Assembly: GCF_006265115.1 (NCBI RefSeq) | Contig: NZ_SMDR01000002.1 | Location: forward strand, 433,743 to 497,742 | Direction of reading: 5' to 3' | From: Arenimonas terrae | Lineage (GTDB): Bacteria; Pseudomonadota; Gammaproteobacteria; Xanthomonadales; Xanthomonadaceae | DNA length: 64,000 nucleotides | Part shown: piece after piece, positions 36,838-64,000 of the stretch | Numbering within the stretch: position 1 is the stretch's first letter | Layout: the number at the start of each line of letters is the position of its first letter | Program-made: the position numbers and the translations under genes | Notes under the pieces: generated by a model | Told to the model about the DNA's origin: nothing | The model's database searches: none | Seen by the model: the letters and a program-made list of their open reading frames with translations, nothing else

Positions 36838-37584
36838 ATGAAGATCCTCGTCGGTTACAAGCGGGTCGTGGACTACAACGTCCGCATCCAGGTCAAGCCC
36901 GATGGTTCGGGCGTGGTCACCGAGGGCGTGAAGCTCTCGCCCAATCCCTTCGACGACATCGCCCTGGAAGAAGCCCTGCGCCTGCGCGACAAGGGCATCG
37001 CCACCGAAGTGATCGTCGCCACCATCGGCCCGGCCGACTGCCAGCCGCACCTGCGCAACGGCCTGGCCATGGGCGCCAACCGCGCCATCCACGTGGTCAC
37101 CGACCAGGCCATCCAGCCGCTCACCGCCGCGCGCGCGATGCTCAAGCTGGTGGAGAAGGAGCAGCCGCAGATCGTGCTGCTGGGCAAGCAGGCCATCGAC
37201 GACGACGCCAACCAGACCGGCCAGATGCTGGCGACGCTCTGGGGCCGCCCGCAGGCCACGTTCGCGAGCAAGCTCGAGGTCGCCGGCGACAAGGCCACCG
37301 TCACGCGCGAAGTCGACGCCGGCCTGGAGACGCTCGAAGTCGACCTGCCCGCCGTGGTCACCACCGACCTGCGCCTGAACGAGCCGCGCTTCATCAAGCT
37401 GCCCGACATCATGAAGGCCAAGTCCAAGCCGCTGGAAACCCTGCAGCTGGCCGACCTGGGCGTCGAGTCCGGCGACCATCTCAAGACCAGCACGTACGCC
37501 CCGCCCGCCAAGCGCAGCAAGGGCGTGATGGTGAAGGACGTCGCCGAGCTGGTCTCGGCGCTCAAGGCCAAGGGCCTGGTGTAA
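36838..37584 (+). CDS. etfB: Electron transfer flavoprotein beta subunit
   Basis: 248 residues, AMP-binding subunit of ETF, the electron acceptor of acyl-CoA and other dehydrogenases. Starts MKILVGYKRVVDYNVRIQVK; LSPNPFDDIALEEALRLRDKG and the ETF-beta recognition-loop region with AMGANRAIHV and LLGKQAIDDDANQTGQ are clear. First gene of etfB-etfA-wecB. Electrons pass to the ETF-QO encoded at 21.1 kb. Confidence 0.95.
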   Translation: MKILVGYKRVVDYNVRIQVKPDGSGVVTEGVKLSPNPFDDIALEEALRLRDKGIATEVIVATIGPADCQPHLRNGLAMGANRAIHVVTDQAIQPLTAARAMLKLVEKEQPQIVLLGKQAIDDDANQTGQMLATLWGRPQATFASKLEVAGDKATVTREVDAGLETLEVDLPAVVTTDLRLNEPRFIKLPDIMKAKSKPLETLQLADLGVESGDHLKTSTYAPPAKRSKGVMVKDVAELVSALKAKGLV

Positions 37585-37597
37585 GGAGACGATGACC

Positions 37598-38533
37598 ATG
37601 AGCAAGATCCTGATCGTCGCCGAACACCTCGGCGGCAAGCTGAACTCCTCCACCGCGCGCTGCGTCGCCTGCGCCGCGAAGATCGGCGGCGAGATCCACG
37701 TCGCCGTACTGTCCGACGCGCCGGACGCGGTCGCCGCCGAAGCCGCGCAGATCGCCGGCGTCGCCAAGGTGATCACGGTGGCCAACGCCGCCAACGCCAA
37801 CCCGATCGCACAGGTGCTGGCGCCGCAGGTGGCCAAGCTGGCCGCGGGTTATTCGCACGTGCTCGGCCCGTCCACCACGTTCGGCAAGGACCTGATGCCC
37901 TGCGTCGCGGCCCTGCTGGGCGTGGCCCAGGTCAGCGACATCATGTCGGTGGAATCGAGCCACGTGTTCAAGCGGCCGATCTATGCCGGCAACGCCATCA
38001 TCACGGTCGAGGCGCCGTCGGCGATGGCCGTGGTCGGCACCGTGCGCACGGCCTCGTGGCCGGCGGCGGGCAACGGCGGCAGCGCGGCGGTGGAAGCCGC
38101 GTCGGTGGACGCCGCCCTGCCCTCGCACACCCGCTTCGTGTCGCTGCAGCAGGGCAAGTCCGACCGCCCCGACCTGCAGAGCGCGTCGAAGGTGGTCAGC
38201 GGCGGCCGCGCGCTCGGTTCCGCCGATGCGTTCTCGATCATCTATTCGCTGGCCGACAAGATGGGCGCGGCCGTGGGCGCCTCGCGCGCCGCGGTGGACG
38301 CCGGCTACGTGCCGAACGAACTGCAGGTCGGCCAGACCGGCAAGATCATCGCGCCGGAGCTGTACGTGGCCATCGGCATCTCGGGCGCGATCCAGCACCT
38401 GACCGGCATCAAGGACGCGGGCACCATCGTCGCCATCAACAAGGACGCGGAAGCGCCGATCTTCGAGATCGCCGACTTCGGCCTGGTCGGCGACCTGTTC
38501 GCGCTCGTGCCCGAACTGGAGAAGTCGCTTTGA
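37598..38533 (+). CDS. etfA: Electron transfer flavoprotein alpha subunit
   Basis: 311 residues. N-terminal domain [20 protein letters not shown]-terminal FAD-binding domain with [50 protein letters not shown] and [20 protein letters not shown]. Two ATGs are possible (37592 and 37598); AAGGAG at 37583-37588 is better spaced for 37598, which also fits family starts. wecB overlaps its stop region. Confidence 0.95.
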
Positions 38534-38538
38534 GTTCT

Positions 38539-39678
38539 GTGACCGGCGGCGGCGCCGTCAGCAAGCGGGTGATGGTGGTGTTCGGAACGCGTCCGGAAGC
38601 CATCAAGATGGCACCGGTCGTGGAGGCACTGAAGGCGACCCCGGGCATCGAAACCCTGGTCGCCGTGACGGCGCAGCACCGGCAGATGCTCGACCAGGTC
38701 CTGGACCTGTTCGGCATCGTGCCCGACGACGATCTCGACGTGATGGCCCCGGGCCAGGCGCTGCCGGACCTGTTCGGCCGCATCCTCTCGGGCATGACCG
38801 AGGTGTTGGCACGGCGCAAGCCCGACCTGGTGCTGGTGCATGGCGACACCAGCACGACCTTCGCCACGGCCCTGGCCGCCTTCTACGCCAAGGTCGCGAT
38901 CGGCCACGTCGAAGCCGGCCTGCGCACCGGCGACCTGCAGGCGCCCTGGCCCGAAGAGGCCAATCGGCGCCTGACCGCGCCGCTGACCGCACTGCACTTC
39001 GCGCCGACCGAGCAGTCGCGCAGCAACCTGCTGGCCGAGAACCTGCCCGCCGGCAGCGTGCACGTCACCGGCAACACGGTGATCGACGCGCTGCTCGCCG
39101 TCGTCGACCGCTTCAAGAAGGATCCGGCCCTGGCCGCCGGCCTGGCCGAACGTTTCCCCTTCCTCGACGACGGCAAGCGCCTGGTGCTGATCACCGGCCA
39201 CCGCCGCGAGAACTTCGGCGACGGCTTCGAGCAGATCTGCCTGGCGCTGCGCGAACTCGCCCAGCGCGGTGACGTGCAGCTGGTCTATCCCGTGCACCTC
39301 AACCCGCAGGTGCAGGAGCCGGTGAACCGGATCCTGTCGGGCATTCACAACGTCACCCTGATCCCGCCGCAGGATTACCTGCCCTTCGTCTACCTGATGT
39401 CGCGGGCGCACGTGATCCTGACCGACTCCGGCGGCATCCAGGAAGAAGCGCCGTCGCTGGGCAAGCCCGTGCTGGTGATGCGCGACACCACCGAGCGGCC
39501 CGAGGCGGTGGACGCCGGCACGGTGCGCCTGGTCGGCACCGACCGCGCCCGCATCGTGGCCGAAGTCACCCGCCTGCTCGACGACGAGGACGCGCACCGG
39601 TCCATGGCCCGCGCGCACAATCCCTACGGCGACGGCCAGGCCGCCCGCCGCATCGCCGACATCATCGCGGCCTGCTGA
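38539..39678 (+). CDS. wecB: UDP-N-acetylglucosamine 2-epimerase (non-hydrolysing)
   Basis: 379 residues. Converts UDP-GlcNAc to UDP-ManNAc for surface polysaccharides. Motifs: [69 protein letters not shown]-type [11 protein letters not shown], and [10 protein letters not shown]. The start codon is unclear: TTG 38530 overlaps the etfA stop, GTG 38539 was chosen. No wecC is in the window. It is the first sugar gene beside etfA. Confidence 0.92.
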
Positions 39679-49390: not shown

Positions 49391-50532
49391 CCTCCCCCAA
49401 GGCTCCCATGATCCCCTTCAACAAGCCGCACATGACCGGGCGCGAGCTCTGGTACATCGCCCAGGCGCATGCCAACGGCCATCTCTCCGGCGACGGCGCC
49501 TTCACGAAACGCTGCAGCACCTGGCTCGAGCAGCGCACCGGCGCCGCGCGCGCGCTGCTGACCCACTCCTGCACCGCGGCGCTCGAGATGGCGGCGCTGC
49601 TGCTGGACCTGCAGCCGGGCGACGAGGTGATCATGCCCTCGTTCACCTTCGTCTCCACCGCCAACGCCTTCGTGCTGCGCGGCGCGGTGCCGGTGTTCGT
49701 GGACATCCGCGCCGACACCCTGAACCTGGACGAGAACCTGGTCGAGGCGGCGATCACGCCCCGCACCCGAGCCATTTGCGTGGTCCACTACGCCGGCGTC
49801 GCCTGCGAGATGGATGCGATCATGGCGATCGCCGGCAGGCACGGCCTGCAGGTGGTCGAGGATGCCGCCCAGGCGATCATGTCGAGCTACCGCGGACGAC
49901 CACTGGGCACCATCGGCCAATACGGCGCGCTGAGTTTCCACGAGACCAAGAACATCGTCTGCGGCGAGGGTGGCGCCCTGCTTTGCCGCGACGCCGAATC
50001 GGCCGACCGCGCCGAGATCATCCGCGAGAAGGGCACCAACCGCAGCCGCTTCTTTCGCGGCCAGGTCGACAAGTACACCTGGGTGGATGTCGGCTCATCG
50101 TTCCTTCCCGGCGAAATCTCGGCCGCCTTCCTCTGCGCGCAGATGGAGGCCGCCGAAGAAATCACGGCCGGGCGACTCGCGCTGTGGGACCGCTACCACG
50201 CCTGGGCCGCGCCGCACGAAGCCGCGGGCCGGGTCCGGCGTCCCATCGTGCCGGCGCACTGCGTCCACAACGCGCACATGTACTACCTGCTGATGCCCGA
50301 CCTGGCGGCACGACAGCGCTTCATCGCGACCCTGCGCGAACACGGCGTCGGTGCCGTCTTCCACTACGTGCCGCTGCATTCCTCGCCGGCGGGGCAGCGC
50401 TTCGGCCGCAGCCACGGTGCGCTGGACGTCACCGATGCCACCGGCGATCGGCTGGTGCGCCTGCCGCTCTGGCTGGGCCTGGAGCCGCAGCTGGACGCGG
50501 TGCTGGCCGCCTGCGACGCCGCGCTGGCCTGA
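49387..50532 (+). CDS. Nucleotide-sugar aminotransferase, WecE/RffA-like
   Basis: 381 residues (E. coli WecE 376). DegT/DnrJ/EryC1 PLP enzyme converting dTDP-4-keto-6-deoxyglucose to the 4-amino sugar. MIPFNKPHMTGRELWYIAQA, LLTHSCTAALEMAALLL, GDEVIMPSFTFVSTANAFVLRGA (in part), VEDAAQAI, and the PLP lysine K188 in SFHETKNI followed by CGEGGAL; PLHSSPAGQRF near the C terminus is typical of WecE. The dTDP-glucose genes rmlAB are not in the window. Confidence 0.9.
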   Translation: MTSPKAPMIPFNKPHMTGRELWYIAQAHANGHLSGDGAFTKRCSTWLEQRTGAARALLTHSCTAALEMAALLLDLQPGDEVIMPSFTFVSTANAFVLRGAVPVFVDIRADTLNLDENLVEAAITPRTRAICVVHYAGVACEMDAIMAIAGRHGLQVVEDAAQAIMSSYRGRPLGTIGQYGALSFHETKNIVCGEGGALLCRDAESADRAEIIREKGTNRSRFFRGQVDKYTWVDVGSSFLPGEISAAFLCAQMEAAEEITAGRLALWDRYHAWAAPHEAAGRVRRPIVPAHCVHNAHMYYLLMPDLAARQRFIATLREHGVGAVFHYVPLHSSPAGQRFGRSHGALDVTDATGDRLVRLPLWLGLEPQLDAVLAACDAALA

Positions 50533-50544
50533 GCGGAGCACGCC

Positions 50545-52596
50545 TTGGCCCTCCCGCCGCTTCGTACCCGCCTTGCCGATGCACTGCCGCTGTCGCGCAG
50601 CGGCCCGTGGCTGGCGCTGTGGCTCGCCGCCTGCATCCTCGTGCCGGTGCTGGCCCTGGGCCTGCTCGGCAGCCTGCCGGCGCAGTGGGGCAACCTGCGC
50701 TACTTCCCGCTGTCCGACGCGCGACTGACAACCGCGCTGGCGGCCATCGCCGTGCTGGCGCTCAGTGTCTGGCTGGCACGTCGGCGCGAACCGCTGCCAC
50801 CCTGGCCCTTCGTGCTCGCCACCACGGCCATCGCGCTGGGCCTGCGCCTGGCCTACACCGGCGCCGTCGAGACCGTCTGGACCAACGACTTCCTGCTGTA
50901 CTGGGACACCGCCAGGCAGCAGGTGGCCTCGGGCAACTACGCCGTCACCAGCCTCTACAACGAACGCACGCTGCCGATCCTGGTCCCCCTGATCCTGCTG
51001 TTCGGGCCCGACCAGGGTTACGTGGTCCTGGCCAACATCGCCATGCTGACGATGATGCAGCTCGCCGGTTACGACCTGCTGCGGCGGATGCATTCGCACC
51101 AGGCCGCGCAGGCATTCAGCGTCGCCTTCATCGCGGCGCCGATTCCGCTGTTCGCCCTCACCATCCCCAGCCATGACCTGTGGGCGATGGGTTACTGCGC
51201 CGCGGCCCTCTGGCTGTGCGCGGTGGTGCTGGGCCATCGCGGGCGCCGCGGAACGCTGGTGGCGGTGGGCGTGGCCGGCGCCCTGGCCCTGGTCTGCCTG
51301 ATGATGGAAATCCAGCGCGGCATCGGCCTGCTGCTGGCGGCGGCGATGCTGCTGGCCGCACTGATGGGCTGGCTGGCCAGACGTGGCGACACGCCGGCCG
51401 ACAACCGCCCGCTGCCCACCCTGCTGCTGGTCTGCGCCGCCGTGCTGGCGGCCCAGTGGCCCCTGGGCACGCTGCTCGGAAAAATGGACCTGCGTGCGGC
51501 GGACGAACCCGGGCATCGCGTCCACATGGCGGCGTACTACGCCTCCAACGGCACCTCACTGGGCAACGGCACCTGGGGCTGGATGGACGGCTTCCGACAG
51601 CAGTTCACCGAGCCGCTGCGTACCGACGACCCGAAGCGGCTGGAGCAGCTGTCGCAGTCTCTGGTGCTCTCGGACTGGGCCGAACAGCCCCTCAAGCGCC
51701 TGGACAACGTCGCCGACCGGCTGGCCGGGCTGTTCGTGCTGGACAACTCCAACTTCTGGTATTTCACCGAGGTGGATCCGGCACTGGAGAAGCCGCTGGG
51801 CTGGCTGCGGCTGTATTCGCTGTTCGTGTCGCTGGGCTTCACGCTGGCGCTGGGCCTGGGGCTGGTCCGGCTGCTGCTGGGCGCCCTGCCCTCGGTGCCG
51901 ACGCTGGCGGGGCTGGTGCTGACCTCGGTGGTCGCGCTGGCACTGTGTTCGTTCTCGGAGAACCAGCCGCGCTACCTGATGCTGCTGTGGTTCACCGGCC
52001 TGCTGTTCCTGGCCGAAACGTTCGGCCGCCGGCCGCAGCCGCAGCCGGCCTCGCTGCGCACCGGCGCGCTGGTGTCCGTGGCCGCGGGGCTGGGCTGGAT
52101 CGGACTGCTGGGCTTGCTACTGGTACCTGTGCGCGCCCTGTACGGACCCGAGGACGGCCGCATCCTGGGGCAATGGACGCGCGTGTCGACCGGCGCGCCC
52201 GCAGGGGCCCTGCTCGTCGCGGCCGACCCCGACCCGTATGTGCATGTGACCGAACCCGGCGAACTGGCGGTCGCCCTGCTGCCGCGCGATCCGGGCGTAC
52301 GCCAGGCGCTGTGCCTGCCCGCCGGGGGGCCGGACGATCTGGCGCTTTTCGTGCGCGCCGAAGCCCTGCATCCGGGCGATGCCCTGCTGGTGCGCTTCGG
52401 CGACACCAATGCACGACGCTTCGAGCTCGCCGACGCGCAGGGCAAGGCGCTGGACCTGCGCGTCCCGGACCTGGGGCAACAGGGAAGCTGCGGCGTACTG
52501 GAGCTGAGGCTGGAGTCGCGCAGCCGCGAGCCGGCGGCGCGGGCCGTGGTGTTCTTCCCCCGGCTTGAAGTGACGATGGACGACCGCCGGCGCTGA
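50545..52596 (+). CDS. Large polytopic membrane protein, GT-C-like glycosyltransferase
   Basis: 683 residues, starting TTG 50545 (no ATG nearby). About 11-12 hydrophobic helices in the first 530 residues and a periplasmic C-terminal domain (~545-683). TM-loop-TM layout with an acidic early loop (TNDFLLYWDTARQQVASGNY: an aspartate pair after TM3) and NSNFWYFTEV recalls GT-C enzymes that take sugar from a polyprenyl phosphate in the periplasm (ArnT, GtrC, PMT). No close family recognised. Last gene of the five-gene plus-strand block. Confidence 0.7.
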   Translation: MALPPLRTRLADALPLSRSGPWLALWLAACILVPVLALGLLGSLPAQWGNLRYFPLSDARLTTALAAIAVLALSVWLARRREPLPPWPFVLATTAIALGLRLAYTGAVETVWTNDFLLYWDTARQQVASGNYAVTSLYNERTLPILVPLILLFGPDQGYVVLANIAMLTMMQLAGYDLLRRMHSHQAAQAFSVAFIAAPIPLFALTIPSHDLWAMGYCAAALWLCAVVLGHRGRRGTLVAVGVAGALALVCLMMEIQRGIGLLLAAAMLLAALMGWLARRGDTPADNRPLPTLLLVCAAVLAAQWPLGTLLGKMDLRAADEPGHRVHMAAYYASNGTSLGNGTWGWMDGFRQQFTEPLRTDDPKRLEQLSQSLVLSDWAEQPLKRLDNVADRLAGLFVLDNSNFWYFTEVDPALEKPLGWLRLYSLFVSLGFTLALGLGLVRLLLGALPSVPTLAGLVLTSVVALALCSFSENQPRYLMLLWFTGLLFLAETFGRRPQPQPASLRTGALVSVAAGLGWIGLLGLLLVPVRALYGPEDGRILGQWTRVSTGAPAGALLVAADPDPYVHVTEPGELAVALLPRDPGVRQALCLPAGGPDDLALFVRAEALHPGDALLVRFGDTNARRFELADAQGKALDLRVPDLGQQGSCGVLELRLESRSREPAARAVVFFPRLEVTMDDRRR

Positions 52597-52669: not shown

Positions 52670-54745
52670 CTACTGCGCGGCGGCCGGCTCCAGCCCCAGG
52701 CGCTGGGCCAGCACCGGCGCCAGGGTGCGCGAGTACACCGCGGTCAGGTGGTGCGGGTCGCGCCAGACCAGCACATTGCCCACCACCGAATCGCAACGTT
52801 CGGGCGAACAGATCGCGTCGGTCATGTCGATCAACTCGGCCTTCGGATTGGCGGCCGCCGCGGCCACCAGCGGATCGAATCCGGCCACGGCCTCGGCGCG
52901 GGGCACGCTGCAGGGCTGGTCCCCGGCCAGGCACTGCGGCGGGTCGAACGGCATGCGCGGCGTGTCCTGGAGCAGCACGACGCGCGGGCTGATGCCGCGC
53001 AGCTCCGTAACCAGCTCCTCGAGCATCCGGGTGCTGCGCTGGTCGCTGTCCGCCTTGCCCTTGCTGCCGAAGATGCGCGAGTTGCGCGAGCGTCCCAGCA
53101 CGATCATGTCCGGCGGCGACTTGCGGAGCTGCTCGATCACGTCGCGCGACCAGGTCGTGCACTCCGTATAGGGCTTGCCGCGGATCGAATGGTCGAGCAG
53201 GGTCAGCGGGCAGGCCGACTTGGTGTAGCTGATGACGCGCCAGCCGGTGGCCTTGCCCAACTCCTCGAACGCGGGGATCCAGTTGGCGGCGTGCGAGTCG
53301 CCGATCAGGACCGCCGTCCGCTCGCCGGTCTCGGCGCCTATCGAACAGCCCTTGGCCACATCGTCCTGCGGCCGCGCATGGCAGCCGTTGCCATAGGCGT
53401 CGGCCAGGTCCGAGCGCGCCGATTCCAGCGACGGGATGAAGTCCTTGCCGGCCGGCGCGGTGGCGCCCGCCGTCAGCACCAGCGCCCCCGGGTAGTCGGC
53501 GTTGGCGGCGTAGTTCTCCCACGATTCGCTGCGGCTCTTCACCAGCAGGCCGATCGCCAGGGCCGACACCAGGGCCACGGCGGTGCAGCCCACGCCCAGG
53601 GCAAGGGCGCCGTCTCGCAGGCGCGGCGCGGGAGCCGAAGCCGGCTCGCCGCCGGTCGGACCGGAGGGCAGCGGCACCGGAGAATGGGTGGTGCGGAACG
53701 CGTCTTCGACATAACGCTTGGACAGCCAGGCGAACAACAGCGAGGCGGCCAGCAGCGCCAGGCCCAGGCCGATGCCCGGCGCACCGCCGAAGGCGTAGCC
53801 GGCAAACACGATCAGCGGCCAATGCCAGAGATAGAGGGAATAGGAGATGTCACCCAGGAACTGCATCGGCGGCACCGCGAGCAGGCGTTGCGGCGCGGCG
53901 ACGTGGCCGCCGCTGCCGGACCAGATCGCGAGCGCCGTACCCAGGGTCGGCAGCAGCGCGGCGTAGCCGGGGAAAGGCGTCTGCTTGGTGAAGAAGACCG
54001 CGCTGGCCAGGACCATGGCCAGGCCGAGCCAGCCGGCCAGGGCGCGCAGCGCGGGCGCGCCGCCGCGCCAGGGCATCAGGGCGAGCACGCAGCCTACGCC
54101 CAGCTCCCAGACGCGCGTGTGGCTGGCGAAATAGGCGATCGCCGGATCGGCCGACGTCAAGTACACCGACGCCGCCAGCGACGCCAGGCTCACCAGCGCC
54201 ACCGTCGCGGTCAGCAGCATCCGGCGCAGCTGGGGATTGCGGGACGCCGAGCGGGCGACCAGCAGGATCAAGGCCGGCCAGACGATGTAGAACTGCTCCT
54301 CGATCGCCAGCGACCAGAAGTGCTGGAGCGGACCGACCGCTTCTTCCGCCGCCAGGTAGTCGACCGAGTTGGCCATCAGCCGCCAGTTCTGCGCATACAG
54401 CGCACTGGCGACGATGTCCTGCGCCACTTCCATCCACTTGAAGCGGGGCGCGACCAGCAGCGTGGCCACCGCCGTGAACACCAGCACCAGGGACGCAGCC
54501 GGCAGCAGGCGGCGCACGCGCCGGCCGTAGAAGCCGCGCATCGAAATGTCGTTGCGCGCCTCGAGCTCGCGGGCCAGCAGACTGGTGATGAGGTAGCCGG
54601 AGATGACGAAGAAGGCGTCGACGCCGACGTAACCGCCGGGCAGCCACTGCGGCCAGATGTGGAACACCAGCACGACGCCCACCGCAATGGCGCGAAGTCC
54701 CTGGATATCCGGCCGGAAGCCGGAAACATGCGTACCAGCAGTCAT
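52670..54745 (-). CDS. AT3-SGNH O-acyltransferase (OafA-like)
   Basis: 691 residues. N-terminal acyltransferase-3 membrane domain (~1-380): FRPDIQGLRAIAVGVVLVFH, GGYVGVDAFFVISGYLIT, FYGRRVRRLLPA, FWSLAIEEQFYIVWP, SYSLYLWHWPL. An extra TM leads to a periplasmic SGNH domain (~430-685): nucleophile block TAVLIGDSHAANW and the C-terminal WRDPHHLT (DxxH). Such enzymes O-acetylate O-antigen or capsule sugars. ATG 54745 has a GGAG site 8 nt upstream. It is transcribed against the five-gene block. Confidence 0.92.
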   Translation of the reverse strand: MTAGTHVSGFRPDIQGLRAIAVGVVLVFHIWPQWLPGGYVGVDAFFVISGYLITSLLARELEARNDISMRGFYGRRVRRLLPAASLVLVFTAVATLLVAPRFKWMEVAQDIVASALYAQNWRLMANSVDYLAAEEAVGPLQHFWSLAIEEQFYIVWPALILLVARSASRNPQLRRMLLTATVALVSLASLAASVYLTSADPAIAYFASHTRVWELGVGCVLALMPWRGGAPALRALAGWLGLAMVLASAVFFTKQTPFPGYAALLPTLGTALAIWSGSGGHVAAPQRLLAVPPMQFLGDISYSLYLWHWPLIVFAGYAFGGAPGIGLGLALLAASLLFAWLSKRYVEDAFRTTHSPVPLPSGPTGGEPASAPAPRLRDGALALGVGCTAVALVSALAIGLLVKSRSESWENYAANADYPGALVLTAGATAPAGKDFIPSLESARSDLADAYGNGCHARPQDDVAKGCSIGAETGERTAVLIGDSHAANWIPAFEELGKATGWRVISYTKSACPLTLLDHSIRGKPYTECTTWSRDVIEQLRKSPPDMIVLGRSRNSRIFGSKGKADSDQRSTRMLEELVTELRGISPRVVLLQDTPRMPFDPPQCLAGDQPCSVPRAEAVAGFDPLVAAAAANPKAELIDMTDAICSPERCDSVVGNVLVWRDPHHLTAVYSRTLAPVLAQRLGLEPAAAQ

Positions 54746-54959: not shown

Positions 54960-56102
54960 ATGCTGCTCGAAACCAGCCTGATCCTCACCGCCCTGGCCAC
55001 CGCCCTGGCCGTGCACCGGCGCGCCCGCCGCCGCGGCGGCCGCGCCCTGCCCGCCGTGGTCGCGATCGCGCTGTTGTGCGCCGTACTGGTGGCGTTGGCC
55101 GCGGACCAGCGCCGCCGGGTGGCGGACACGCCGACCAGCCGCCTGATCAAACACAACCTCGCCGTGCTCCGCGCGCATCTGGCCGATCCGTCGCTGCGCA
55201 CCCTGCTGATCGTCGACGGCGGCAGCTATCCGACCCGGGGACTGAACGGCGAGCGCTTCGGCGCCGTGCTCTCGCAACGGCTGGGGCGGCGGGTGGGCAT
55301 CGTGCAGATGAGCCAGGGCAGCGCCAACCACTTCGAGCGCTACGACGCATTCCGGCGCCTGCTGGCCGAACTCGACGCAGGGGAGCGACAGCAGCTGCGC
55401 CAGAAAGACCTGCACCTGCTGCTGGAGGTCCAGCGCGGTTACGACGCCAGCCCGATGGCGCAGTTCCAGAAGATGGCGTATTCGGACCGCGCCTACGCCT
55501 ACCTGGGGCCGGGCAACGCCTGGGCGGCGATGCGCAGCCTCTCGCAGGTCGGCGCCGCGCGCGCGCGCGCCAACGCGGGACCGCGAACGCGCGACCTGAT
55601 CGCGCATGCGCTGGTCAACGGCTTCCTGCTCGATGCGGTCGGCCGCCGGCAGCGCGTCGAGGACCTGCCGCGCGACATGCCGGGCTACCTGCCCCTCCGC
55701 GCGGGGCGGCAAGACTTCGCCTTTCCCGGGCTCCAGGACGTGCGCGACCGGCTGGAGCAGGATCGCGAGCCCGGCATGATGGCCTGGGTCGATTCGATCC
55801 GGGTGCCGCGGCTGCAGGCGCTGTTCGGCGACCTGATCGACCAGACGTCCTTCTACGCCGTGCCGACCACCTACCCCGACTACGCGACCTACGCCCGCGC
55901 CTTCTGCCGCAAGCATGCCGGCAGCGTCTGCGTGCACTACGCCGACCCACGCCTCCTGCAGCGGCTGGACGCGGCCGCGATGTGGGCCGACAAGGGCCAC
56001 CTCAGCCAGCGTGGCGCCTTTGTCTATTCGACCTGGCTGGCCGGCCGCCTCGCCGCGACGCTGTCGGTCACGGCATCGGAGCCGGCTCGCCGCCCAGAGT
56101 GA
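54960..56102 (+). CDS. Membrane-anchored SGNH-like protein of unknown function
   Basis: 380 residues from ATG 54960; longer readings cross a Pro/Ala-rich leader that does not look coded. One TM near the N terminus (~5-60, with LPAVVAIALLCAVLVALAA). The soluble part starts LLIVDGGSYPTRGLNGERFGAVLSQRLG and ends WADKGHLSQRGAFVYSTWLAG; a Ser in the first block (GGSYPTRG) and DxxH (DKGH) at the C terminus recall the SGNH/DltD-like layout of O-acetylation helpers. Middle part unrecognised. Its 3' end overlaps the convergent heparinase-like gene by 35 bp. Confidence 0.68.
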   Translation: MLLETSLILTALATALAVHRRARRRGGRALPAVVAIALLCAVLVALAADQRRRVADTPTSRLIKHNLAVLRAHLADPSLRTLLIVDGGSYPTRGLNGERFGAVLSQRLGRRVGIVQMSQGSANHFERYDAFRRLLAELDAGERQQLRQKDLHLLLEVQRGYDASPMAQFQKMAYSDRAYAYLGPGNAWAAMRSLSQVGAARARANAGPRTRDLIAHALVNGFLLDAVGRRQRVEDLPRDMPGYLPLRAGRQDFAFPGLQDVRDRLEQDREPGMMAWVDSIRVPRLQALFGDLIDQTSFYAVPTTYPDYATYARAFCRKHAGSVCVHYADPRLLQRLDAAAMWADKGHLSQRGAFVYSTWLAGRLAATLSVTASEPARRPE

Positions 56103-57717
56103 TCCGGGTGGCGACCCGCACCGGCGCGGCCGGCAGCCGGACCCGCAGGCAGGTGCAGGGCACGCGTTCGCGATAGGACGGGCTGCGCCAGCCAAGCACC
56201 ACCGGCTCGCTTTCGCCGCGGTGCAGGCTCAGCGCCGCATCGGCGTGATCCACCGCCAGGGTCGCGACCACCGCACCCTCGCGGCGGGCGATCGCGCGGT
56301 TCCCGTCCAGCTCGACGGCGACGTCCTCATGGAAATGGAAGCGGAGCTCCACTGCCTCGCCGGAGCCACTTTCCACCTGGTCGAGCAGCAACAGCTGCTC
56401 GCCCGGCGCATACATGAAATGACGGCTGTGCCGGAACACGCCGCCACGCTCGACCGCACCCGACACCACCCAGGCTCCGCCGACCTGCGACATGCCGGTC
56501 AGCGCCGAGCCGCGTGGCGAAGTGTCCGCGGGCCGGAAGACCGTCTCGGCAAGGCCGGCAACGTTGTGGCTGCGATCGCCGACGAAATAGGTCCGCCACT
56601 CGTCGGCTTCGTAGGCATATTTCCCCGAATCCACCAGCAGCGGCCGGCCGCGGTCGAACAGCTCGAAGCCCAGCTCGTCCACGTGGTCATGGCCGATGCC
56701 GCGCCAGCTGCTGCCGCTGACGATCAGCATGAAGGCGCGTTCCGGCGGCGTCTCCGGATGGCTGCGTACGATCGCGTAACCCCCGGCGCACAGGTCGCGC
56801 GCGATCACGGGGACCCCGTCCGGCGTGTGCCCCCGCACCGGCGGCGCGGCGCCTTCGGGAAAGGCCAGGCCCTCGCCTTCGCTGTCGCCGATCGCGGCGA
56901 AACGGCCGTCGGGCAGCGTCAGCCAGGGCGTCACCGCGGCGGCCTCGGCCAACAGCGCCGTGATGTCGTCGGCGACCAAGGGGTAGAGCCCCGGACGGAT
57001 CTTGCGGAAGCGCAGCACGGCGAAATGGTGGTAGAACGGCGAATCCTCGGTATGCACCGCGTCGGCGCCGAACTGCGAATGCACCAGGTCGCGCATGCGC
57101 AGGGAGGTCTCGGTCTCTTCGCCCGGGTCGTCGGCGGCGCCCGGATGCGCCGCGCACAGCAGCCGCAGGCCATGCAGCTGGAAGATCGCGTGGTTCATCT
57201 TCGACAGGAACTCGGGGTCGCGCAGCCGGCGCACGTGTTCGCGCGCGAGCGCGTCGAACATGGCCTGGTCCGCATCGGGGATCCGCGCCAGGCCTTCGTC
57301 CACGACCGTCTTCACCAGGGCCAGGTGCTGGGCGCGCAGTCCGGTCGCCATGTCGTTCCAGGCGTATTCGGAACCGATCCCTTCCACCATGTGCGCCCGG
57401 TGCCAGTCGCGGAGCACCTCGAGCACGTTGTCGAACAGCGCCGGGTCGGGAGCGACGTCCAGGAAGCGCCGCCACACCGGGTTGAGCATGCGCCAGGCAT
57501 GCAGCTGGAAGCGCCAGTTGCGGTCGCCGTGCGGGTCGATGGTCCAGTCCAGCGGATAGGCCAGGGGATAGGGCGGCAGATCGGCACGGGGCTGGAATCC
57601 GGCCTCCAGCGGTTGGCCACGCTCGGCGCTGACGACCTGGAAGTCGTTGCGCTGGAGCACCGTGTGCTGGAAACGGTAGCGCCCCGGGCGCTTGGTCTTG
57701 GGCTTCGATGCGCTCAC
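56068..57717 (-). CDS. Heparinase II/III-like polysaccharide lyase family protein
   Basis: 549 residues. An alpha-helical toroid domain (~40-320; NWRFQLHAWRMLNPVWRRFLD, EYAWNDMATGLRA, HTEDSPFYHHFAVLRF with candidate catalytic Tyr/His) precedes a beta-sandwich heparinase II/III domain (~335-545; GGYAIVR, GHDHVDELGFELFDRGRPLLVDSGKYAYE in segments, SHNVAG). No signal peptide is visible, as in many heparinase-like proteins encoded beside polysaccharide glycosyltransferases, where they may trim or release uronic-acid polymers. Starts GTG 57717, overlapping the stop of the 1997-residue protein gene (GTGA). Confidence 0.88.
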   Translation of the reverse strand: MSASKPKTKRPGRYRFQHTVLQRNDFQVVSAERGQPLEAGFQPRADLPPYPLAYPLDWTIDPHGDRNWRFQLHAWRMLNPVWRRFLDVAPDPALFDNVLEVLRDWHRAHMVEGIGSEYAWNDMATGLRAQHLALVKTVVDEGLARIPDADQAMFDALAREHVRRLRDPEFLSKMNHAIFQLHGLRLLCAAHPGAADDPGEETETSLRMRDLVHSQFGADAVHTEDSPFYHHFAVLRFRKIRPGLYPLVADDITALLAEAAAVTPWLTLPDGRFAAIGDSEGEGLAFPEGAAPPVRGHTPDGVPVIARDLCAGGYAIVRSHPETPPERAFMLIVSGSSWRGIGHDHVDELGFELFDRGRPLLVDSGKYAYEADEWRTYFVGDRSHNVAGLAETVFRPADTSPRGSALTGMSQVGGAWVVSGAVERGGVFRHSRHFMYAPGEQLLLLDQVESGSGEAVELRFHFHEDVAVELDGNRAIARREGAVVATLAVDHADAALSLHRGESEPVVLGWRSPSYRERVPCTCLRVRLPAAPVRVATRITLGGEPAPMP

Positions 57718-60700
57718 GCGGCAACTCCGGCGGCGGCCTGGTACTGGGCGACCATCAGCTCGCCGGCGCGACGCCAGCTGCGGTGTTCGTGCACCCAGGC
57801 CTTGCCCCGGGCCCCGAGCGCCGCGCCGGCCGACGGGTCGTCGATCAGCTCGCCGAGCACGCGCGCCAGGTCGGCGGTGTCGCCCTTGCGGAAGACGCGC
57901 CCGTTGAAGCCGTCCTCGATGATGTCGCACAGCGCGCGCACACTGGAAACGACGACGGTCTTGCCCATCGCCAGCGGCTCGAACGGCTTCATGGGTGACA
58001 CCATTTCACAGACCTCCCAGGGCTTGCGCGGGAAAGGACACACGTCCAGCAGCGAATAGAGCGCGCCGACCTCGTCGTGCGGTACCCGGCCGGTGAGGAT
58101 GATGCGCTCGGGCACCGTGCTGGCCTGCACCGCGGCCTGCACCAGCGGCATGGCCGCGCCGTCGCCGACCAGGAGCAGGCGGAAATCCCGGCCCTCGGCG
58201 GCGAGCAGGTCGCAGGCCTGGACCAGGTCGTCCAGACCCTCGTAGTCCATGAACGAGCCCACGTAGCCGATCACCGGCACCCCATCGGGAATGCCCAGGC
58301 GCCGTGCGGCGGCGGCATCGCGAGGAAGTGGCACGAAACGATCCGGATCCACGCAGTTCGGCACCAGGCTCAGCACCTCGGGCGCGACGCCGCGCTCCAG
58401 CAGCTCCTCGCGCATCGCCTCGGTGAGGGTGACCACGCGGTCGGCCGCCCGCACCGTCACGCCCTCGAGCAGGCGCATGCGTTCGGTGCGCGCCTTCTGG
58501 GCGACGGCGTTCTCGCGCGATTCGTGCACGACCTCCCACAGGCCCGACACTTCGTAGACGAAGGGGATGCCGACCCGCCGCGCCGCGATCAGGGCGGGCA
58601 GCGCGATCAGGTAGGTCGAGCGCCCGTGCACGATCGCCGGCCGCTCGCGCCTCAGCACGTCCTCGAAGGCATCCACGCAGCCCGCCATGTAGGCGTATTC
58701 ACCCTCGCGGCGCGCTGCGCCATCGAGGATGCGGCGGTATTCCACGCCGTCGATGGTCTCGCGGTCCGGAACCTCGGTGCCGGCCAGCTCGGGCCGTGAG
58801 TCGAGCGGGAAGCCCGGACGCGTGTACGGCCGGATGTCGAAGCCGGCCCGGCGCACGCCCGAGATCAGGCCGTGCGCGCGCGTGGCGTAACCGCCGGACA
58901 GGTGCGGCAGGCTGCTGTGCAGGAAGTAGACGCTCTTGCCGGGCACCGGGTCGAACGCGGGTTCGCGCTCGTCGACGCCGGCCTGCAATCGCTCGAGTTC
59001 GGAAAGCAGGCCGTGGAAAGTCGCCGCCTCGCGCCGGATCTGCTCCTCGCCGTCGGTCAGCGGCGGCTCGATCTTCTGGATCCGCTCGAGCACCTCGAGC
59101 GCGCGGCCGAAGCGGCAATGGTTCAGCGATTCGCGCGCCAGCGCCCGCAGCGATGCGCGCGACTCCTGGACGCGCACCGCCTCTTCGGCCAGCTCGCAGG
59201 CGGCGTCGAGCTCGCCGTGGCCGCGGCACAGGGTCGCGGCGCGGGCGAGGCAGAACGAGACCAGGCCGGCCTGCCGCGGGCTCGTGCCCTGGGCCAGGGC
59301 CAGCTCGCGCACGCCGGCCGTCCCGCGCTCGGCATATGCCTGTTCGAGCAGGGACTGGAAACGGGTCTTCTGTTCGGCGGTGAAGGAGCCGCGCCCCGGT
59401 GCGACGACCTCGGGTTCGCGCAGCGCCGGCGGCGCCGCCGGCGGCAGCGACGCATCGGCCACGCTCGGCCCGAGCTGACGGTACGTCTGCGCCACCGTGC
59501 CGGCCACGTGGGTCCAGGTGCGTTCGGCGAGCACCCATTCGCGGGCCTGCAGGCCCATCGTCGCGGCCAGCGGACGATCGCGGCAAAAGCGCTGGATCGC
59601 GGCGGCCAGCGCCGCGGGATCTCCGGCGGGGAACAGCAGCCCGGTATGGCCGTCGCGGATCATTTCGGCCAACGGCGGCAGGTCCGACGCCAGCACCGGG
59701 CGCGCCATCGCCATCGCCTCCAGCGGCTTGATCGGCGGCACCAGGCGGCACACGTCGAGCGGTTTGCGCGGAAGCACGACCGCGTCCGCCAGCGCCAGCA
59801 GTTCCGGCACGCGGTCGGGGCGGACGCGGCCGACGAAGCGGACGCGCGGCCCCAGCCCCAGCCGTTCGGCCTGGGCTTGCAGCGGCTCCAGTTCCGGCCC
59901 GATGCCGACCACCATCAGCTGCACGCCGAGTGCGGCGAGGCCCGGGTCGGCAAGGGCCGACAGCAGGTCGTCCAATCCTTCGTAGGACACCAGCGAGCCG
60001 ATGTAGGCCAGGGTCGGCGCATCGACCGCCAGCCCGAGCTCGCTCCGTCGCGCCGCCTCCAGGGCGATCGGGGCGAACCGCGCGGGATCGACGGCATTGG
60101 GGGCGACCGCGATGCGGGCCGCCGCGACGCCCTGGGCCCGCAGCCGTTCGGCCACGGTGCGGTTGATCGCCAGGACGCGATCGGCCGACGCGGCCACCAG
60201 GCGCTCGAGGCGCGCGTGCAGATGGAACCGCTCGCTTTCGTTCCAGCCGGTCATGGCCGACGCGGCGGTGTATTCCCAGAATCCGCGCACCTCGTAGACG
60301 AAGGGAATTCCGAGGCGGCGGGCGGCGATCAGCGCGGGCAGCGCGTTCTCGTGGTTGGAGGCGGCGTGGATGATGGCGGCGCTGATCCGGCGGGCCACGG
60401 CCTCGATGGCCCGGGCCGCCTGTTCGGTCCAGACCTGCGGCGACAGGCCGCTGCGGCCCGGCCCGCCGGCGTGCAGGTAGCGCACGCCCTCGAGCTCGAT
60501 GTCACCGATCGGTGCGCTGGCGGGTTCGCCCCGGTCTTCGGGGAAACCCGGCCTCATCAGGCAGTGCACGTCGACGCCCACAGCCGCTAGCGAACGCAGC
60601 ATCGCATGGGTGCGCACCGTATAGCCGCTGACAACGTGCGGAAGCGTGCTCGCCGCGACGTAGAGCACGCGGCCGGGCACCGCCGCGGCATGGCGGGCCG

Positions 60701-63700
60701 CCAGGGCCGGGACCTCCGGCAGTTCCGTCAGCAGCGCGGCCGCGCCGCGGATCTGTCGCACGCGCGCCTGCTCCGACGCGGTGAATTCAGCCGTCGCCCC
60801 GATCCGGTCGAGCAGCGCGGCGCTGCCCGTCACGTCGCCAGCGTCGAAGCGGCGGAACGCCAGCCACTTGGCGCGGAACGGCTCGGGCTCGAGTTCGTGC
60901 GCCCGTGCCGCCAACGCGAGTGCGCGGCCCGGGTCGGACGCGATCAACGCCTTGGACAGATTCGACATCAGGTGCGCGGCCATCCAGCCCGGCAGGGCCA
61001 GCGCTTCAATCCGGGCCGCCGCCGCGTCAGCTCCGGCCTCGGCGAGCAGTCCGGCGATCTGGGCCTCGAGCGCTTCGCGGTCGATCGGCGCGCCGGTCTC
61101 AACGACCGGCGCCGGCTCGGCGGCGATTCGGGGGCGCCGCCACAGGGTGCGCACGATGCCGGCGAGGCGACGTGGCAAAGCAAGGGCACCGCGCCCGCTG
61201 CTGCCCGCGGCGACCAGGGCGCTGCCGAGCCGGAAACTAATGCTCTGTTCGAAGCTGGCGAGCCGATCTTCGCGCTCCAGCAACTGCTGCCGCCAGTCCT
61301 CGGCCTCGGCGAGATGGCTGGCCGATGCGGCCTCGGCGGCGGCCTGCGCACTCTGCAGCGCCCGCGCGGCATCGTCGCGCGCCTGCTCGAGCTGCCGACG
61401 CGAGGACGCCTCGAGTTCGGCGCGCAGCTCGCCCAGCCGGCGTTCGCTGGCCTCGTGCTGCTGCTGCAGTGCCGCGGTGCCCTGCGCCAGACCGTCCTGC
61501 AGCCTGGCGATCTCGCGTCGTGCATGGGTTTCGATTTCGGCGCTGCGGGAATGCAAGGCCTGCAGCTCGCTTTCCAGCTTCAGCCGCGCTGCTTCGATGG
61601 CATCGCGTTCGACGCGCAGGCGTTCGCCTTGCAGCCGTTCGGAACCCAGAGCCTGCGCCGCCGCGTCCAGCCTGGCCCGCAAGGCAGCGAGTTCGGCTTC
61701 GAGGCCTTGGACATGCTCGCGTGCGGCCACCGATTGCGCCGCGGCTTGGTCGAGCTGGCCCTGCAGACGGCCGACTTCCGCCTGGCGCCGCTCCGCCAGC
61801 TCACGCGTGGCGGCCAGCGCCGCCTGCTCCTGCCCCAGCTGGCCCAGCAGGCGATCGACTTCCGCCTGGCGCCGCTCCGCCAGCTCACGTGCGGCGGTCA
61901 CCGCCGCACGTTCACCGGCCAACTGCTCGCGCAGGTCCGCGCCGGCGGCCTGTTGCTCATCCAGCTGCCTGCGCAGATCGGCGCCCGCGGCCTGTTCGCC
62001 GCCCAGATGGTCGCGCAACAGGTCCAGGGCGGCCTGCGCGCGCGCCGACTGGTCCCGCAGCGCATCGTGGTTCGCGCGCAGCTGCTCCGCGCGTTCGCGC
62101 TCGGCGGCCAGCGCAGAAAGTTCCCTCTCGACCTGCTCGCGCAGGGACTGGACCAGGGCCGACGACGCCGCGAGCGCGACCGCCGCGTCCTGGCGCTGCT
62201 GCAGCACGCCGGCCATCTCGCCGCGCAGCTTGGCCGCATCTTCGACCAGCGCCGTCAGCTCGCGCGCGCGTTCGCCGTCCTTGGTCTGCATGCCGGCGGC
62301 GAGCGACTTGACTGCGGCGCGAAGCTCTCCTGCCTCGTTCTCCAGGCGATCGTGGATCTTGGCCTGCTGCGCCTGACTTTCGCCCAACGCCGCGCGCAGC
62401 GCCTCCAGGCGCAGCGGCTCGGCTGCGGCGACGAACGCACGCAGCACGGCCGGTCCGTCGGTGCGCGCGCGGCGCCCCGCCAGCGCCGCGGTGAGCCACG
62501 CAACCGTGCGCGTGCGCTCTTTTTCCAGCCGTGCCGGCACCTTCTCGTAGGCGTGATCGCGCTTGGCGTGCCAGGCCATCGCCTCGCGAGCACCCTCTTC
62601 CACCGAAAGCCGCGAAAGCGAGACGCAGGCGCCGGGAACGCCCAGCAGCTCGAACAGGCCGAGCAGCTTGTGGCCGTGCTTCTCGAAGTGCACGCCGAAC
62701 ACCGGCCGGCCCAGGGAAGCGGCCAGGATGCAGGCGTGGAAGCGGGAACTGACCAGGAAACCTGTCCGCGCAAGGGCCCTCTGGTATTCGGCGATCGAAG
62801 CCGGTTGCAGAACCCTCACCCGCGCCTCGCCGAATTCCGCCTGCAGCGCCTCCGCCAGCGCCAGCGCCATGTCGCGGTCGGCCAGCGTCTGCACAAAAAG
62901 GTCGACGCGGCCCGAACCCTGGGCAAGGTAGGCGCGCGCGGTCGCGGCGCTGAACTGGTAGGCGCGGCTGGAACGGAAGCCGTCCTTGCGCAGGCTGGCG
63001 CTGACGTGCGCGCTGCGCCGCTTTCCGACCCGCAGTCCGAATTCTTCCAGCCGCATGACGATGCCCAGGCTGTCCTCGACCGCATCGGCCTCGGGCAGCG
63101 GCAGGAAGAAGGCCGGGTCGAGCAGCACCGGCGCTTCCAGCCCCAGCGCGGCGGCGACCGCCGCCGAGCGCGGCTCGCGCGCGGCGAGCGCGTGGTTCGC
63201 GCCCAGCGCCTCACGCAGCAAGGGCAGGCTTTCGGCGTCGTCGAAGGGGCCGAAGGTGGACGGCAGCGTGATGAACCTCGGGCCCTGCTGCGCGGCCGCC
63301 ACCATCGGCAGCAGCCGCCAGAGCAGGTCCACGCCGTTCTCGCGCGAGGGATGGGTGAAAAGGTGCTCGCCGGAGTTGTAGAGGATCGCCGAACAGTCCT
63401 CGAGCCCGGCCTCGGCGAGGAACGCCGCCGGCGCCAGCGCGTGCGAGACCGCGCGGCTGATCTGTTCCGCCTGGCGTTCGCCCTCTCCCGCCGCCCCGCC
63501 ATGGCTGTTGAGCGTGGTGATCGCCACGTGTTCCAGGCCGTCGAAACTGGCCCTGGCCGCGTCCAGGTAGGTGTCGTTCGGATCCAGCAGCACGACCTGG
63601 AGCCGGACATCCGGAACGACCCGCGCCAACAGGCCGCAGATGCCGGCGTTGATCGCCAGGTCGCCGAGATTGCTGGCCACGTGGCCGTAGACGATGCCGA

Positions 63701-63707
63701 TCTTCAT
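57714..63707 (-). CDS. 1997-residue fusion: pyruvyl transferase + coiled coil + two GT4 glycosyltransferases
   Basis: A single uninterrupted frame. 1-400: polysaccharide pyruvyl transferase (YGHVASNLGDLAINAG, ITLPSTFGPFDD, SSRFHACILAASLGRPVFGVH). ~430-830: coiled coil with 7/14-residue periodicity and internal repeats (ELAERRQAEV twice), ended by SISFRLG. ~860-1000: helical, TPR-like. ~1012-1415: first GT4 (HVVSGYTVRTHAMLRSL, IPFVYEVRGFWEY, PNAVDPARF, IGSLVSYEGLDDLL, PPIKPLEAMAMARPVLAS). ~1445-1580: helical linker. ~1592-1990: second GT4 (HLSGGYATRAHGLI, IPFVYEVSGLWEV, PNCVDPDRF, VGSFMDYEGLDDLV, SPMKPFEPLAMGKTVVVSS). In both GT4s the usual first Glu of EX7E is missing or displaced (L1322; E1901 is one place early). 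Translationally coupled to the heparinase-like gene. Predicted role: cytoplasmic assembly, capping and length control of a surface glycan. Confidence 0.88.
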   Translation of the reverse strand: MKIGIVYGHVASNLGDLAINAGICGLLARVVPDVRLQVVLLDPNDTYLDAARASFDGLEHVAITTLNSHGGAAGEGERQAEQISRAVSHALAPAAFLAEAGLEDCSAILYNSGEHLFTHPSRENGVDLLWRLLPMVAAAQQGPRFITLPSTFGPFDDAESLPLLREALGANHALAAREPRSAAVAAALGLEAPVLLDPAFFLPLPEADAVEDSLGIVMRLEEFGLRVGKRRSAHVSASLRKDGFRSSRAYQFSAATARAYLAQGSGRVDLFVQTLADRDMALALAEALQAEFGEARVRVLQPASIAEYQRALARTGFLVSSRFHACILAASLGRPVFGVHFEKHGHKLLGLFELLGVPGACVSLSRLSVEEGAREAMAWHAKRDHAYEKVPARLEKERTRTVAWLTAALAGRRARTDGPAVLRAFVAAAEPLRLEALRAALGESQAQQAKIHDRLENEAGELRAAVKSLAAGMQTKDGERARELTALVEDAAKLRGEMAGVLQQRQDAAVALAASSALVQSLREQVERELSALAAERERAEQLRANHDALRDQSARAQAALDLLRDHLGGEQAAGADLRRQLDEQQAAGADLREQLAGERAAVTAARELAERRQAEVDRLLGQLGQEQAALAATRELAERRQAEVGRLQGQLDQAAAQSVAAREHVQGLEAELAALRARLDAAAQALGSERLQGERLRVERDAIEAARLKLESELQALHSRSAEIETHARREIARLQDGLAQGTAALQQQHEASERRLGELRAELEASSRRQLEQARDDAARALQSAQAAAEAASASHLAEAEDWRQQLLEREDRLASFEQSISFRLGSALVAAGSSGRGALALPRRLAGIVRTLWRRPRIAAEPAPVVETGAPIDREALEAQIAGLLAEAGADAAAARIEALALPGWMAAHLMSNLSKALIASDPGRALALAARAHELEPEPFRAKWLAFRRFDAGDVTGSAALLDRIGATAEFTASEQARVRQIRGAAALLTELPEVPALAARHAAAVPGRVLYVAASTLPHVVSGYTVRTHAMLRSLAAVGVDVHCLMRPGFPEDRGEPASAPIGDIELEGVRYLHAGGPGRSGLSPQVWTEQAARAIEAVARRISAAIIHAASNHENALPALIAARRLGIPFVYEVRGFWEYTAASAMTGWNESERFHLHARLERLVAASADRVLAINRTVAERLRAQGVAAARIAVAPNAVDPARFAPIALEAARRSELGLAVDAPTLAYIGSLVSYEGLDDLLSALADPGLAALGVQLMVVGIGPELEPLQAQAERLGLGPRVRFVGRVRPDRVPELLALADAVVLPRKPLDVCRLVPPIKPLEAMAMARPVLASDLPPLAEMIRDGHTGLLFPAGDPAALAAAIQRFCRDRPLAATMGLQAREWVLAERTWTHVAGTVAQTYRQLGPSVADASLPPAAPPALREPEVVAPGRGSFTAEQKTRFQSLLEQAYAERGTAGVRELALAQGTSPRQAGLVSFCLARAATLCRGHGELDAACELAEEAVRVQESRASLRALARESLNHCRFGRALEVLERIQKIEPPLTDGEEQIRREAATFHGLLSELERLQAGVDEREPAFDPVPGKSVYFLHSSLPHLSGGYATRAHGLISGVRRAGFDIRPYTRPGFPLDSRPELAGTEVPDRETIDGVEYRRILDGAARREGEYAYMAGCVDAFEDVLRRERPAIVHGRSTYLIALPALIAARRVGIPFVYEVSGLWEVVHESRENAVAQKARTERMRLLEGVTVRAADRVVTLTEAMREELLERGVAPEVLSLVPNCVDPDRFVPLPRDAAAARRLGIPDGVPVIGYVGSFMDYEGLDDLVQACDLLAAEGRDFRLLLVGDGAAMPLVQAAVQASTVPERIILTGRVPHDEVGALYSLLDVCPFPRKPWEVCEMVSPMKPFEPLAMGKTVVVSSVRALCDIIEDGFNGRVFRKGDTADLARVLGELIDDPSAGAALGARGKAWVHEHRSWRRAGELMVAQYQAAAGVAA
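61772..61889. repeat. 84-bp-period direct repeat in the coiled coil
   Basis: A 34-nt sequence starting CGACTTCCGCCTGGCGCCGC recurs exactly at 61772-61805 and 61856-61889. The 84-bp period encodes 28 residues, four heptads (ELAERRQAEV...). Shorter 42-bp/14-residue repetition (EQ-AAGADLR-QL) lies next to it, at about 61919-61990. Confidence 0.8.
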
Positions 63708-63746: not shown

Positions 63747-64000
63747 TCAGGCGTCGACCTGGGATGCACAGGCTGCGGAATTGTAGCCGCCGTCCTCGCA
63801 GTATCCGAATTCGTCTGCGGCGATCACCTCGAAGCGCGCCACGCCGGCCAGCTGCATGGCGTCCAGGCCCAGCAGCTGGCTGCTCGGCAGCAGGCTGCAC
63901 CAGGCCGGCGCCTGGCCGCGGCTGCGGAACGGAACTTGCGCATGACCCTCGAGCACCGGCGCGCCGCGCCACGCCCAGCGCCTGAGCTTGCCGACGCCGC
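63747..64000 (-). CDS. C-terminal part of an unrecognised protein (runs off the window)
   Basis: The minus-strand frame ending at 63747 is open to the window edge (about 84 codons), so the start is outside. The readable C terminus includes APVLEGHAQVPFRSRGQA, SSQLLGLDAMQLAGVARFEV and ends GYCEDGGYNSAACASQVDA, with three cysteines in the last third. It lies 39 bp upstream of the giant fusion gene in the same direction, so it may begin or belong to the same operon. Family not recognised. Confidence 0.55.
   Translation of the reverse strand, partial: GVGKLRRWAWRGAPVLEGHAQVPFRSRGQAPAWCSLLPSSQLLGLDAMQLAGVARFEVIAADEFGYCEDGGYNSAACASQVDA

Follow-up and report, generated by a model that had tools for sequence, protein, structure and literature searches.

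What can one protein do for a surface polysaccharide when it carries a capping-type enzyme at its N terminus, a long coiled coil in the middle and two glycosyltransferases (GTs) at the far end? The question is raised by P0001, a 1997-residue open reading frame (ORF) in a 64,000-nucleotide stretch of the Arenimonas terrae genome (contig NZ_SMDR01000002.1, positions 433,743 to 497,742), referred to as the window herein. An initial annotation made from the sequence alone had described P0001 as a pyruvyl transferase, a coiled coil and two GT4 domains in one chain, and proposed that the coiled coil acts as a ruler. Our analysis confirmed the observation on the ORF and its modules: the frame exists with an ATG start, it lies on the minus strand, which the annotation had not stated, and the blocks placed at residues 1–400, 1012–1415 and 1592–1990 proved correct. 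Pfam placed PS_pyruv_trans at residues 13–339, and four GT4-type models each matched two stretches, the best being residues 1027–1210, 1221–1391 and 1605–1784; all of these matches exceeded their cut-offs. The domain order, the rod and the identity of the pyruvyl transferase likewise stood, on Pfam matches, periodicity and family motifs. By analogy with WbbB of Klebsiella pneumoniae O12, we consider there to be an even chance that P0001 works as a polymerase, ruler and terminator in one, with a pyruvate cap, for a surface polysaccharide exported by an ATP-binding cassette (ABC) transporter.

The family motifs and profile searches support the assignment of residues 13–339 to the polysaccharide pyruvyl transferase family. 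This stretch scored 82.7 bits against a PF04230 cut-off of 25.3, and all three motifs described for WbbZ and its relatives, NxGD, Rxxx(S/T) and a conserved His (PMC10629545), are present as N13xG15D16, R177xxxS181 and H324. In a hand-picked alignment of 18 sequences (the P0001 domain, L006, L008 and 15 PF04230 loci from class genomes), R177, R322 and H324 were the sole fully invariant residues, and N13, G15 and P335 were nearly invariant. By their place in the motifs, R177 and R322 would correspond to R217 and R337 of the fission yeast enzyme Pvg1, whose arginines bind phosphoenolpyruvate (PEP; PMC10629545). The 18-row profile matched Pvg1 (E = 5.5e-21) and WbbZ (E = 3.3e-05) best among PDB chains, while a profile built from only three N-terminal domains matched no PDB chain. 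When the predicted model was searched with Foldseek, Pvg1 was found at rank 35 (E = 2.8e-06), with epimerases and GT-B-like enzymes above it, and WbbZ was not among the best 50 rows; the structural matches of the WbbZ authors also included epimerases, but with Pvg1 ranked first (PMC10629545). Membership of the CsaB family (TIGR03609) was rejected, the score being 46.6 bits versus an NCBIfam cut-off of 213.1.

The rod that follows is free of proline over 413 residues, a run expected by chance at about 1.5e-12 for a stretch picked post hoc, given a proline content of 6.4% in the remaining protein. Residues 437–830 show a hydrophobic periodicity of 3.5 residues, which none of 500 shuffles reached, and the six strongest identity lags in the rod (28, 56, 70, 84, 42 and 14) are without exception multiples of 7, a pattern to which tandem repeats contribute. 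Five tandem repeat entries fall in the rod DNA: in three the repeated unit is 84 or 42 bases long, and in the other two it is 15 and 27 bases, lengths that do not make whole heptads. AlphaFold2 modelled helices at residues 418–473, 480–564, 577–687 and 694–836 with low confidence (10-residue means of the predicted local distance difference test, pLDDT, of about 35–73). A globular bundle in place of a rod had been named in advance as a result that would speak against a ruler; in the low-confidence model, instead, two of the helices run for 111 and 143 residues. At 0.15 nm per residue, the rod would measure up to about 60 nm if fully extended. The post-rod segment, residues 822–862, holds the best 18-residue hydrophobic moment of the protein to two decimals (0.66) in a region of low pLDDT. 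The SISFRLG motif of this segment resembles SVSFKLG of L008, and its LPRRL part recurs in L017; the segment is a candidate for association with the membrane.

In the AlphaFold2 model of residues 845–1997, a helical region of about 130 residues leads into each GT4 unit. This model is good for GT4b and poor for GT4a, as the underlying alignment covers mainly GT4b, and we drew no reading of the mutual position of the two units from it. The TIGR04063 model extends the second GT to residue 1990. Membership of TIGR04063 (PEP-CTERM/XrtA glycosyltransferase) was rejected: the single domains scored 278.6 (GT4a) and 284.8 bits (GT4b) against a cut-off of 442.05, and the whole-protein pass at 554.1 bits is the sum of the two.

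The initial annotation knew of no characterised protein with this order. Two are described: WbbB of K. pneumoniae O12 and ORF6 of K. pneumoniae O7 are single chains with an N-terminal terminator, a coiled coil and two C-terminal GTs (PMC11231755), built on other cap chemistries. WbbB also belongs to an ABC-export locus, and its two GTs make a disaccharide repeat (PMC11231755). It differs in joining a beta-Kdo (3-deoxy-D-manno-oct-2-ulosonic acid) transferase (GT99) to GT102 and GT103 modules, where P0001 has a pyruvyl transferase and two GT4 units, and O12 export depends on a carbohydrate-binding module (CBM) for the cap, whereas the Wzt of the P0001 locus has none. ORF6 joins a methyltransferase-kinase, a coiled coil and two GT modules (PMC11231755); it differs from P0001 in its methylphosphate cap, in having GT2 modules and in an extra CBM domain in its terminator part. 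In Escherichia coli O9a, a coiled coil, together with a segment associated with the membrane, keeps the terminator WbdD at a distance from the polymerase WbdA (PMC11231755, PMC3482155), but there the polymerase is a separate protein, the cap is methylphosphate and Wzt has a CBM. WbdD has 708 residues, and its C-terminal domain (460–708) is shorter than the P0001 rod (PMC3482155). The module order is not new, and the pyruvate cap would make P0001 an unusual variant rather than a new kind of machine.

For the cap itself the closest parallels are WbbZ of K. pneumoniae O1 and Pvg1, which share the enzyme family, its motifs and a terminal pyruvate, and the O1 exporter, like that of the P0001 locus, is without a CBM. 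WbbZ differs in being a stand-alone enzyme (a 272-residue chain in PDB 6x1l). In vitro it shortens the polymer, ending polymerisation early in a PEP-dependent manner (PMC10629545), which makes an ending by pyruvate chemically reasonable. For Burkholderia vietnamiensis and Pseudomonas protegens, a single sentence of PMC10629545 likewise proposes termination and length control based on pyruvate, and the same paper states that validating biochemistry for pyruvate terminators is not yet available. P0001 would be a sequenced single-chain case of the kind proposed.

Since the order of P0001 matches characterised single-chain proteins, no available model suits it better than capping at a distance. 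The post-rod segment would hold both GT4 units near the membrane, where they would help to extend a lipid-linked chain, and the extended rod would keep the pyruvyl transferase distant from them. Once the non-reducing end of the growing chain arrived at the far end of the rod, a pyruvate ketal would be added from PEP and extension would stop. As the locus encodes a Wzt without a CBM, the cap would most likely set length on the synthesis side only and not serve as an export ticket.

Several observations, on the rod, GT4a, the exporter and the relatives, weigh against this model. The best heptad register was the same in 8 of 14 windows along the rod and different in 6, which points to register breaks, and the rod model is low in confidence with a weak point around residues 563–592. 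Should such places be hinges, the rod could be a flexible arm that gives the enzyme reach to pyruvylate residues along the chain; in favour of this, 25 of 49 candidate pyruvyl transferases are implicated in modifying Klebsiella capsules (PMC10629545). We consider decoration of the repeat unit distinctly improbable, as P0001 copies the order of terminator proteins and a position at the far end would poorly suit a modifier of every repeat.

GT4a, in turn, has an Arg nine residues before the conserved Glu, at a position within residues 1311–1339 of the ORF (window 59463–60680), where seven of eight compared GT4 domains have Glu or Asp; the 52% identical GT4 domain of G076, a genome of the same genus, has Glu there. 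GT4a may have changed or lost its activity; if so, P0001 alone would not polymerise a disaccharide. P0001 could then be a recent fusion in which GT4a is partly degenerate: it would act mainly through a single GT, with the pyruvyl transferase on a tether, and the other linkages would fall to GTs encoded separately in the locus. Two further GT genes adjoin P0001, and the related protein of L008 has a single GT4, both in keeping with such a fusion. Its probability nonetheless appears very low: the frame is intact, GT4a otherwise scores with TIGR04063 much like GT4b, and some active GT4 enzymes are without an acidic residue at this position.

The exporter bears on what the cap could do. In Xanthomonas and Stenotrophomonas strains the lipopolysaccharide (LPS) locus lies between metB and etfA, with wzm and wzt first on the metB side (PMC2238763), and the wzm/wzt cluster that includes P0001 occupies this known position between metB and etfBA. 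The product is probably an LPS O antigen, exported by the ABC transporter. Wzt of this cluster has 266 residues and no Wzt_C carbohydrate-binding module among its Pfam matches; at the same locus, two Xanthomonas strains encode Wzt proteins of 410 and 452 residues (PMC2238763). A search for the cap-reading domain PF14524 found it neither in the A. terrae genome nor in any of five relatives, and the control matched in 2 of 14 genomes. Export in O9a and O12 is restricted to capped chains, the CBM reading the cap, and the O1/O2a exporter is without a CBM (PMC11231755). The cap at this locus therefore cannot gate export as in O9a and O12, and a ruler-type protein beside a CBM-less Wzt mixes the O9a/O12 and O1/O2a types. 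In O1 itself, terminal pyruvate does not set chain length (PMC11231755, PMC10629545). P0001 and its locus share with coiled-coil terminators such as WbdD and WbbB a long rod, GT modules in or bound to the chain (in P0001, two GT4) and wzm/wzt ABC export, and lack a Wzt whose CBM recognises the cap; because of this lack we did not assign P0001 to their type, and it may still work like them on the synthesis side.

Relatives of the cap domain are few. The genome samples searched overlap, and scoring is confined to candidates from a loose first pass, which can miss distant copies. Within these limits, searches for the pyruvyl domain in 198 genomes of the A. terrae family (E ≤ 1e-10), 250 of its order (E ≤ 1e-20) and 27 of its genus (E ≤ 1e-15) recovered the A. 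terrae genome alone; the class sample of 369 genomes yielded two, its own and G216 (E ≤ 1e-8), and the phylum sample of 398 yielded one, its own. The idea that the architecture is typical of the bacterial family was rejected on these counts. GT4b had matches (E ≤ 1e-40) in 6 of 198 family genomes, G129 (L021) among them, and GT4a in 5 of 188. A scan of contigs with a single sequence rather than an alignment as query, which reaches close relatives only, gave 274 stretches that fit the pattern, two of which encode a relative (L008 and L009); none of 31 stretches from viral contigs did so, and plasmids gave no match. The pyruvyl homologues that these searches gave beyond the A. terrae genome were those of L008, from a sediment metagenome-assembled genome (44% identity), G216 (34%) and, weakly, L009 (29%). 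The contig of L008, which carries the closest cap-domain relative found, is labelled Clostridia, a label that may be a binning error. Its 999-residue protein consists of a pyruvyl transferase, a rod of roughly 65–110 residues and one GT4.

G216 encodes its pyruvyl transferase, of 437 residues and without a rod, in a gene of its own, which adjoins a heparinase-like gene, a gene for an 883-residue GT4 protein, likewise separate, and wzm/wzt; the search in this genome's family covered one genome, G216 itself. Two members of the A. terrae family, G076 and G178, have a like cluster at metB with neither cap nor rod at the same locus. The G076 protein, of 2114 residues, is co-linear with P0001 from residue 793 onward at 44% identity; it opens on a short stub and on the LPRRL segment, without the cap and most of the rod, and runs on into other GT modules. 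In place of P0001, G178 has a stand-alone protein of 879 residues, whose only GT4 resembles GT4b most. Wzt of the two loci is 57% (G178) and 54% (G076) identical to that of the P0001 locus. As both loci are without cap and rod, this part of P0001 looks to behave as an optional module. The initial annotation had held that modules found as separate, unlinked genes with no conserved rod would speak against a ruler. Part of this was borne out, as the G216 modules are separate and without a rod and two family members have neither cap nor rod at the same locus, but the G216 modules do lie in one cluster. Neither the CBM-less Wzt nor the Arg in the GT4a motif had been anticipated in that annotation.

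A CBM-less Wzt as in O1/O2a, a rod that is short in L008 and absent from G216, and two sister loci without rod and cap would also fit a terminal decoration, in which some chains are capped as by O1 WbbZ, length comes from the balance of synthesis and export, and the rod only tethers the enzyme. Against this, a rod of 413 residues far exceeds the needs of tethering, and the coiled-coil terminator proteins treated in PMC11231755 are credited there with length control. We regard terminal decoration without length control as rather unlikely, and return to capping at a distance as the model that we prefer.

For that model the locus offers a tentative extension, possible although well short of probable as a whole: the rod alone would set length by ending synthesis, the exporter could not read the cap, the cap and rod would be an optional addition to an LPS locus that varies, and rod length could shift in heptad steps through in-frame DNA repeats whose units are two and four heptads. 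In the cited ruler systems capping and cap-dependent export occur together, so the step that fixes length is hard to tell. The P0001 locus appears with a ruler and cap and without a cap-reading exporter, and the sister loci appear with the same type of exporter and without ruler and cap; together they separate the two steps, which makes the contribution of the ruler testable. The combination of a pyruvyl transferase, a long rod and two GT4 units in one chain with a CBM-less exporter and sister loci without cap and rod was not seen in the papers cited here; we make no claim to priority for this order with a pyruvate cap.

Table 1. Positions of P0001, its modules and neighbouring features in the window, and of related genes in other loci.
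Feature	Position	Strand	Basis
1997-residue ORF P0001: pyruvyl transferase, coiled-coil rod, helical region + GT4a, helical region + GT4b	57714..63707	-	Open frame, ATG start, Pfam
PS_pyruv_trans (PF04230) domain, residues 13–339; N13-x-G15-D16, R177xxxS181, R322, H324	62691..63671	-	Pfam, 18-sequence alignment, motifs published for WbbZ and relatives
Proline-free heptad rod, residues 432–844 (413 residues)	61176..62414	-	Proline absence, periodicity, AlphaFold2
42-bp tandem repeat in rod, 2.2 copies, 75% match, unit of 2 heptads	61924..62017	-	Tandem repeat listing
84-bp tandem repeat in rod, 1.8 copies, 88% match, unit of 4 heptads	61753..61907	-	Tandem repeat listing
Post-rod segment, residues 822–862 (SISFRLG...LPRRLAGIVRTLWRR), candidate membrane-associated amphipathic segment	61122..61244	-	Hydrophobic moment, motif in relatives
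Helical region preceding GT4a, residues 877–1009	60681..61079	-	AlphaFold2, pLDDT mostly about 50–70
GT4a, residues 1013–1412	59472..60671	-	Pfam; TIGR04063; 52% identity to G076 GT4
Helical region preceding GT4b, residues 1444–1577	58977..59378	-	AlphaFold2
GT4b, residues 1595–1990	57738..58925	-	Pfam; TIGR04063; 45% identity to G178 GT4
Heparinase II/III-like gene	56068..57717	-	Called GTG start overlaps ORF end by 4 bases; longer starts exist
3' end of 635-residue GT gene ahead of ORF, same direction	63747..64000	-	Gene calling
etfB and etfA, other flank of polysaccharide locus	36838..38533	+	Gene calling/annotation
UDP-GlcNAc 2-epimerase, step ahead of UDP-ManNAc dehydrogenase	38539..39678	+	Gene calling/annotation
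Heparinase II/III-like genes of relatives	L018:12684-14693; L007:1636-3282; L017:526-3102

P0001 is preceded, in its own orientation, by metB, wzm, wzt, a GT, a UDP-N-acetylmannosamine (UDP-ManNAc) dehydrogenase and a second GT (L004; all but the end of the last GT lie beyond the window). The opposite side of the cluster holds WecE-, GNAT- and GT2-type genes, coenzyme A transferases, a UDP-N-acetylglucosamine (UDP-GlcNAc) 2-epimerase and etfBA. Since the locus contains two genes for UDP-N-acetylmannosaminuronic acid (UDP-ManNAcA), the product is most likely an O antigen that contains ManNAcA. In the G076 cluster a GT and the UDP-ManNAc dehydrogenase form one 895-residue protein (L017:9466-12150), and in A. 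terrae they are separate genes. A heparinase II/III-like gene adjoins such loci in four genomes, that of A. terrae included, with 31–39% identity to the A. terrae gene, also where the pyruvyl transferase or the rod is absent.

On the plus strand, a row of genes at 47423–52596 encodes a GT2, a GNAT acetyltransferase, an EamA/SMR-like protein, a WecE-type transaminase (601.8 bits versus a cut-off of 375) and a 683-residue protein without a Pfam match. This row looks like a module for a Fuc4NAc (4-acetamido-4,6-dideoxygalactose) side branch that would be added after export. An AT3-SGNH acyltransferase at 52670–54682 (minus strand), which scored 353.5 bits with the SucT model, under its cut-off of 1275, suggests O-acylation of the glycan.

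PF04230 itself is more widespread, with 51 matches listed in 42 of 274 class genomes, eight of them in open frames of more than 700 residues. By eye, the order of long rod and GT4 was absent from the seven such frames outside A. terrae, in which the longest proline-free run was 122 residues; whole-protein reading covered these seven, and 15 domain stretches among the remaining 43 matches were aligned. One of the seven, L054, has a start that is probably spuriously long. Four class genomes (L056, L057, L058 and L060) encode long proteins whose long N-terminal part looks repeat-rich by eye, with the pyruvyl transferase further on, and may represent another recurring type of fusion.

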